Shown: one piece after another, positions 2,360 through 4,245 of the stretch | How the letters are laid out: the number at the start of each line of letters is the position of its first letter | How positions within the stretch are numbered: the first letter of the stretch is position 1 | Virus record (IMG/VR): IMGVR_UViG_3300044631_001009 | Span: 1 to 43,328 of that record | Length of the DNA: 43,328 nucleotides | Source of the DNA: a virus | Reading direction: 5' to 3' (one strand) | The notes under the pieces: generated by a model | Database searches by the model: none | Seen by the model: only the letters and a program-made list of their open reading frames with translations | What the model was told of the DNA's origin: nothing | Program-made: the position numbers and the translations under genes

Positions 2360-2472
2360 GGCCGGGCGGCGAAAAAACCTCGGGGCACTGAGGTAAGTAT
2401 CGATGGAGTCCTGATCTTGTGGCCAGTTGATCGCGGCTGCGAGAAATGCTGGTTCAATTCCAGCCCCGGCCA
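2360..2472 (+). ncRNA. tRNA-like element 1 (acceptor and T arm intact)
   Basis: GGCCGGG at 2360-2366 pairs perfectly with CCCGGCC at 2465-2471, followed by A2472 as discriminator. Immediately inside it, GCTGG (2448-2452), loop TTCAATT and CCAGC (2460-2464) make a canonical T arm. The 81 nt between acceptor strand and T stem do not fold as a normal D plus anticodon arm. They contain a possible ACCTC/GAGGT hairpin (2377-2394) and a TCGC/GCGA hairpin (2431-2442). At 113 nt it is much longer than a tRNA, and CCA is not encoded. It may be a tRNA-like structure, a tRNA with an insertion, or a decayed tRNA. Confidence 0.55.
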
Positions 2473-3025: not shown

Positions 3026-3157
3026 GGGAGTGTGGCGGAACTGGCAGACGCGCTGGCTAGTAGGCTTTGACCCGACCGTATCGGCAGCCGAGGACTGGTG
3101 TCTGAGAATGTATCACGGCATTCAAAAGGCGTGCAGGTTCGAATCCTGCCTCTCCCA
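3026..3157 (+). ncRNA. tRNA-like element 2 (leucine-tRNA-like ends)
   Basis: GGGAGTG at 3026-3032 pairs with CTCTCCC at 3150-3156 (six of seven pairs), with A3157 as discriminator. A leucine-type D arm (GCG, loop GAACTGGCAGA, CGC at 3035-3051) and a perfect T arm (GCAGG, TTCGAAT, CCTGC at 3133-3149) are present. The 81 nt between them are about twice what an anticodon arm and long variable arm need. The expected anticodon stem partner of CTGG is missing, and the extra sequence holds other small stems (for example GAATG with CATTC at 3106-3123). At 132 nt it is either an interrupted or rearranged leucine tRNA or a deliberate mimic. No CCA is encoded. Confidence 0.58.
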
Positions 3158-3202: not shown

Positions 3203-3424
3203 GTGACAATAGATGAAATGATTGACCGTTTGATTGAGCTTCGTGACGTTGTTCCCGAGGGTGGCTCGACACCTGTTGTGATTCGTGACATTGGCGACTT
3301 GTACGAAAGAGCGATGGCCGATGTGATGTCGGTCGTCATCAGAGCTAACGACGATGACGATGTCCCATCAGTTTGGGAGAACAAGGACAACGGAAACACC
3401 CACAAGGTGATCAGAGTGTTTTGA
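3203..3424 (+). CDS. Hypothetical protein, 73 aa, paralogue of the 4021 gene
   Basis: GTG start at 3203 with GGAG at 3192-3195. The product (begins MTIDEMIDRLIELRDVVPEG, ends NTHKVIRVF) matches the 74-aa product of 4021-4245 over its full length: an amphipathic N-terminal helix, a 'GGxTPxVIRDxG' beta turn and a 'GNTHxVxRVF' tail. The helix-then-strand layout suggests a small soluble alpha/beta protein. Function unknown; the duplication inside the small-gene region is informative. Confidence 0.78.
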   Translation: MTIDEMIDRLIELRDVVPEGGSTPVVIRDIGDLYERAMADVMSVVIRANDDDDVPSVWENKDNGNTHKVIRVF

Positions 3425-3463: not shown

Positions 3464-3676
3464 ATGACAGAAGAACAACGGTCGGAATTGATGGCGATAG
3501 CTGCACAGATGGCGTTATGTCAGAACATGCCACCGCATTGCATAGGAGACTGGGACATTCCACCGGCGACCTCGGCAAAAGCATGTCGTGAGATTACTCG
3601 TGTTTCTGAGGCGGCCCATGAGCAGTGCAAGGCATGGTCAAAGCGAATCGTGGCACTTGTCGATGGTGCAAAGTAG
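3464..3676 (+). CDS. Hypothetical protein, 70 aa, helical
   Basis: ATG at 3464 with GAGGTGG upstream. The protein is probably all-helical with three cysteines (MALCQNMPPHC, KACREI, HEQCKAW). There is no known motif or membrane span. It forms one leader-plus-ORF unit. Confidence 0.68.
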   Translation: MTEEQRSELMAIAAQMALCQNMPPHCIGDWDIPPATSAKACREITRVSEAAHEQCKAWSKRIVALVDGAK

Positions 3677-4020: not shown

Positions 4021-4245
4021 ATGACGACAATAGATCAAATGATTGAGAGACTGCAGGAACTTCGCGAACTTGCTCCGGAGGGTGGCGAGACTCCGATGGT
4101 GATCAGGGATCTTGGAAACATCTATGAGCAAGCATGTGCAGACTTGATGCCAGTTACTGTTTATATGACTGGCGAGGGTGGCGTTCCGGTGAATTGGGAA
4201 AACCGAGATGAAGGCAACACACATCAGGTCGTCAGGGTATTTTGA
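4021..4245 (+). CDS. Hypothetical protein, 74 aa, paralogue of the 3203 gene
   Basis: ATG at 4021 behind GAGGAAACT. It aligns end to end with the 73-aa product of 3203-3424 (shared elements: MTTIDQMIERLQELRE, VIRDLG, WENRDEGNTHQVVRVF). The copies differ most in the acidic middle loop. Two diverged copies separated by two other leader-plus-ORF units point to duplication with subsequent divergence. Function unknown. Confidence 0.78.
   Translation: MTTIDQMIERLQELRELAPEGGETPMVIRDLGNIYEQACADLMPVTVYMTGEGGVPVNWENRDEGNTHQVVRVF

Follow-up and report, generated by a model that had tools for sequence, protein, structure and literature searches.

An anticodon-less tRNA-Leu-like element in a phage genome and its viral relatives suggest an overlooked class of non-decoding RNAs

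The sequence analyzed here (the window) comprises the entire 43,328 bases of a virus record that encodes a lambda-type portal, a GpA-type terminase and a phage capsid. At positions 3026-3157 of the plus strand, in an entirely intergenic stretch between two co-directional ORFs (one at 2744-2995, the other starting near 3203), lies a tRNA-like element of the leucine type without an anticodon arm. Its acceptor stem is formed by GGGAGTG (3026-3032) and CTCTCCC (3150-3156), which make six of seven pairs and leave one U.U mismatch as the single acceptor defect. The D arm (3035-3051, with stem GCG(G)/(A)CGC at 3035-3038/3048-3051) carries A14, A15, G18, G19 and A20a in the cmscan alignment and matches the pattern of the family described below; the T arm (GCAGG-TTCGAAT-CCTGC, 3133-3149) has all five stem pairs in both the sequence and the cmscan alignment, and the discriminator A73 stands at 3157, with no CCA encoded. 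The D arm and the T stem are separated by an 81-nt segment (3052-3132) whose final base is U48 and which takes the place of the anticodon and variable arms (roughly 35 nt), about 45 nt beyond the needs of a tRNA-Leu. The six acceptor pairs, D arm, complete T stem, A15, U48 and A73 are all features of tRNA-Leu.

A preliminary description of this DNA had recognized a leucine tRNA in the D and T arms and in six of the seven acceptor pairs, and had proposed an Infernal alignment as a check. That alignment bears the reading out: cmscan reports 3026-3157 (+) as the sole match in the window to the Rfam tRNA model RF00005, with a score of 33.3 bits, above the gathering threshold of 29, and an E-value of 0.0026 when the window is searched against all of Rfam and of 6.2e-7 when the tRNA model is run on the record alone. 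None of 100 window shuffles contained a D arm and a T loop at the spacing of the element. ARAGORN called neither the element nor a tmRNA in the window. The possibility of restoring an anticodon arm was evaluated by removing every contiguous stretch of the 81 nt and seeking a 5-bp anticodon stem, a 7-nt loop and U33. In this exhaustive search the best anticodon stem reached three of five pairs, and no single excision produced, for any anticodon, a 5/5 stem together with U33 and purine 37. The leucine anticodon arm of a functional tRNA-Leu was recovered neither by ARAGORN nor by excision, in agreement with the earlier claim of an arm that cannot be completed and of some 45 extra nucleotides.

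Two further features were observed nearby. A second tRNA-like element at 2360-2472 (+) combines an all-GC acceptor stem with seven of seven pairs (GGCCGGG/CCCGGCC), a 5/5 T arm and a discriminator A; it lacks both a leucine D arm and an Rfam match, its layout resembles that of T4 RNA C, and a comparable 7/7 all-GC acceptor case appeared in 0 of 60 window shuffles. Small paralogous ORFs at about 3203-3424 and 4021-4245 (+), with products containing TIDEMIDRL... and TIDQMIERL..., occupy the same hypervariable region.

The 81-nt insert of the window element is not more stable than its dinucleotide shuffles (z +0.47). Its minimum-energy fold predicts one hairpin at the position of the anticodon arm (3056-3099) and another at that of the variable arm (3100-3130), the latter stopping two bases short of the T stem; this two-hairpin layout was found in 4% of shuffles under a criterion picked after the fold was seen. 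The pseudoknot of the wider family was not detected in it (p 0.73 and 0.80). Searching 392 Planctomycetota genomes with the insert yielded no full-length match, only pieces of 22-32 nt with E-values of 0.003-0.009, and the blastn hits of the element among phages were limited to short stretches of the D or T arm, with no T4-like phage among them. In planctomycete tRNA-Leu genes the insert has no counterpart, whereas the two arms do match; such arms are widely conserved and do not identify the host. Since no close homologue is available, assignment of the window copy to the family rests on its tRNA parts, their spacing and the non-restorable anticodon: it has a leucine D arm and a T arm within the 62-92 nt range, at least six of seven acceptor pairs, U48 and an anticodon arm that excision does not restore.

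We scanned viral contigs for similar elements with two exact-pattern searches, the counts from which are lower bounds because the scans impose exact patterns and count only the matches listed. The first, which imposed a leucine D arm followed after 62-92 nt by a T loop, identified at least 120 viral loci. Among the matches listed there were 107 distinct elements, 87 of them with seven of seven acceptor pairs built from many different acceptor sequences and 100 with 5/5 T stems. The second left the D arm free, fixed only one acceptor and the T arm, and again identified at least 120 loci; among the matches listed, about 100 of 119 distinct elements nonetheless had the leucine D arm, 108 had A73 and 99 had U48. 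The identities of bases 15 and 48 in these listed matches are coupled, A15 occurring with U48 in 96 of 107 elements and G15 with C48 in 5 of 5, and in control scans with other D arms (G15) base 48 was C in 45 of 46 generic type I elements and in 8 of 9 serine-type ones. This tertiary pair therefore varies jointly, as in a folded tRNA, and the acceptor stem also covaries across the family. Leucine, generic and serine scaffolds are all present among the scanned elements, and A73 is absent in about 19% of cluster representatives. Few copies are as GC-rich as that of the window: four loci, of which one is a normal tRNA. A large share of the matches in bacterial genomes consists of tandem tRNAs or artefacts of assembly.

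The inserts, grouped into 146 clusters, have a minimum free energy below that of shuffles (mean z -1.03), and the same holds for the scores of a helix adjacent to the T arm (mean z -0.80) and of a pseudoknot built on that helix (mean z -0.82). In aligned pairs of related inserts, the T-arm-adjacent helix accumulates 54 compensatory double changes where slid controls give 5.2, and for the helix that crosses it the figures are 19 and 4.8; these are to be read as counts and not as probabilities, because pairs within one cluster are not independent. Examples include L007 paired with the isolate Bacteroides phage BS-TP2 (L237; PQ571275, 19552-19657), and L046 with L065. A universal pseudoknot was rejected, since some subfamilies (L023/L114/L258/L320) are nested instead, and so was a universal insert motif, with no motif common to all inserts and only a mild enrichment of CAG(C/T)AA. 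With no motif shared among the inserts, a single function for all of them is not established.

Several individual loci display additional features. In the inserts of L291, L323 and L030, three helices seem to cross (ABCABC) with compensatory changes, although alternative folds are possible. The phage tRNA array L407 contains several long elements (525-663, 1851-1972 and 3467-3588, minus strand), and leucine-type and generic-type scaffolds of this one genome carry a related insert motif. An Rfam freshwater-1 RNA, at L301 1382-1443 (-), lies within a phage tRNA array whose contig also bears a long leucine-type element.

The more than 100 distinct viral relatives suggest that a class of non-decoding tRNA-like RNAs has been overlooked. 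Its members appear to retain a tRNA's acceptor stem, its D and T arms and its elbow contacts, with a variable and usually structured segment replacing the anticodon arm. Sequence comparison across this class shows tRNA-like ends under pairing constraint, the 15-48 tertiary pair and the lack of an anticodon. Escherichia coli LeuRS requires A73, A15-U48, G18G19 and A20a, and charges tRNA-Leu without its anticodon and variable arms (PMC9976931). All of these recognized features are present in the window element, alongside its one U.U acceptor pair. On the basis of known biochemistry, the transcript would be trimmed as a pre-tRNA by RNase P and would then receive CCA, the leucine type would be chargeable by LeuRS, which needs no anticodon arm, and the charged RNA could be bound by elongation factor. 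A stable mimic of this kind might occupy or divert a host factor that recognizes the acceptor or the elbow, and its variable middle may be tuned to each host.

We give even chances to the proposal that the window element belongs to a widespread, unrecognized class of phage tRNA-shaped noncoding RNAs working as tRNA mimics. In its best reading, it may be a noncoding phage RNA that undergoes tRNA maturation, is perhaps charged with leucine and is unable to decode, with a role in the infected cell that we infer. Because the element cannot decode, a mimic or decoy role seems to us most likely, and a tRNA scaffold with a payload comes close behind. We hold more tentatively, at somewhat less than even chances, the broader proposition that anticodon-less tRNA mimics chargeable with leucine form a large class encoded by phages of many environments; their middle, in the place of the anticodon arm, would be fast-evolving and often pseudoknotted, and the mimics would act on the host tRNA-handling machinery during infection. 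A mimic retaining only the parts recognized by elongation factor and tRNA enzymes was one of three readings offered in the preliminary description; it is the one best supported at the family level, its activity being putative.

Under the scaffold-with-payload explanation, the tRNA ends would provide processing and nuclease resistance, charging would be incidental and the middle would be the active part, as an antisense, antitoxin-like or anti-defence RNA. We judge it unlikely, even if it accounts for several properties of the family: the ends are constrained, the middles are structured and differ among phages without a common motif, and the occurrence of leucine, generic and serine scaffolds implies that one amino acid is not required. 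However, the prevalence of the leucine D arm even when it is not imposed, together with A73 in the large majority of the second-scan elements listed, exceeds what a neutral scaffold would need, the middle of the window element is not significantly structured, and the middles have no known target.

Less probable again is that the window copy is a decayed gene, a functionless tRNA-Leu that an insertion or a replacement has disrupted within a hypervariable region. The acceptor mismatch, the unstructured insert without homologues and the planctomycete tRNA-Leu genes that match the arms and not the insert are all compatible with decay, and so is the absence of the element from its close relatives, six viral contigs that share a peptidase with the window but carry other DNA in this region. 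As the nearest relatives carry different DNA there, no comparison is possible and the window copy may have decayed. Against this, the remaining tRNA parts are all intact, U48 and A73 included, a second element, with a T arm and an acceptor whose seven pairs are all GC, is found 550 bases upstream, and the family has been maintained in the long term. The earlier suggestion of a broken tRNA gene may consequently hold for the window copy, but as a general account of decay it conflicts with more than 100 distinct viral elements having an intact acceptor, T arm and tertiary pair.

Splicing provides a further, decidedly improbable explanation, in which the element would be an interrupted tRNA spliced by a novel route, possibly beyond one contiguous excision. 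Group I introns are self-splicing, occupy the anticodon loop and exceed 200 nt. A group I intron was rejected for the window element, as the preliminary description had anticipated from its length, the insert measuring 81 nt and giving no group I match in Rfam. The same description had also entertained a spliced tRNA of unknown type, a reading unsupported here: because no single excision restores the anticodon arm, a simple intron is not supported for the window element. Among leucine-type viral members, one excision restores a leucine anticodon arm in about 4%, versus 1.3% of shuffles, and leaves about 95% unrestored. Generic-type elements are restored perfectly by one excision in 14 of 40 cases, versus 2.75% of shuffles, and these look like a separate group resembling short-intron phage tRNAs. 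Other phages apparently do have spliced tRNA genes with short introns, and Lak megaphages carry tRNA introns (PMC6784885); both speak for this explanation.

The short-intron phage tRNAs were found at L354, L363, L367, L371/L417, L376, L378, L382/L407, L394/L418, L396, L410, L415 and L420. Once about 36-54 nt are excised at these loci, the anticodon arm is perfect (Asn GUU, Pro UGG, Lys UUU and Gln UUG being examples), the insertion is often near position 28/29 and the CAGCAA motif is frequent. Two Planctomycetota MAGs, L142 (149-239, -) and L146 (6082-6172, +), contain tRNA-Leu(CAA) genes whose anticodon loop is interrupted after U33 by about 25 nt, and this inserted hairpin differs between the MAGs while its pairing is kept.

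It is very improbable that the element is an attP remnant, that is, a tRNA segment matching a host tRNA gene for integration, for which Prochlorococcus phage P-SSP7, where a leucine-tRNA 5′ segment directly follows the integrase, offers a precedent, given that the virus record, which may be a fragment, has no match to integrase (PF00589) or resolvase (PF00239) and that the element has both acceptor strands and not one gene end.

Returning to the proposed class of tRNA mimics, we found no description of anticodon-less phage tRNA-like RNAs in the open-licence literature. Since tRNA finders look for an anticodon, such RNAs can go unannotated; ARAGORN called 1 of 144 family members, and at 16 loci searched with permissive Rfam thresholds the elements were matched by the tRNA model only. 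Both results may account for the class having escaped notice. Should it prove real, it would add a common, fast-evolving type of RNA gene to phage genomes, provide a context for T4 RNA C and make possible a direct test of whether phage tRNA-like RNAs are matured and charged yet non-decoding, and of which host factor they reach.

Comparison with known systems situates the window element among several partial analogues. Like tmRNA (ssrA), the class is tRNA-like, lacks an anticodon and includes pseudoknots, but the window element is much shorter and has a full D stem and leucine rather than alanine features; a tmRNA identity was rejected, with none called by ARAGORN and tandem UAA in some inserts without a conserved motif. 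Bacterial tRNA-Leu genes with a group I intron are likewise interrupted, whereas the window element has no Rfam group I match. The attP segment of P-SSP7 also places a leucine D-arm sequence in a phage genome, but it comprises the 5′ part only and sits beside an integrase, whereas the window element has both ends and no integrase was found in its record. The tRNAs of Lak megaphages, which hold "enigmatic" introns, are similarly phage tRNA-like genes longer than normal (PMC6784885); their type and anticodon were assigned after intron removal, which is impossible for the window element and for about 95% of leucine-type viral members.

The closest named RNA is T4 RNA C (species 1 RNA, rnaC), an expressed phage RNA of unknown function (PMC9697503). 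It is encoded in a tRNA cluster and has, like the window element, a T arm and acceptor pairing, as well as a T-arm-adjacent hairpin. In contrast to the window element, it has no canonical D arm or D-loop GG, is not leucine-like and has no sequence in common with it. A homologue in Enterobacter phage SonariX (L340 354-448) is annotated as tRNA-Met. The pseudoknot of the family is not supported for T4 RNA C by its relatives, which show instead a local, T-arm-adjacent hairpin that covaries around a conserved CGUCAA loop. Its acceptor pairing covaries as well among relatives (L122 1409-1547 (-) with L338-L342) and reaches seven of seven pairs in fHe-Yen9-01.
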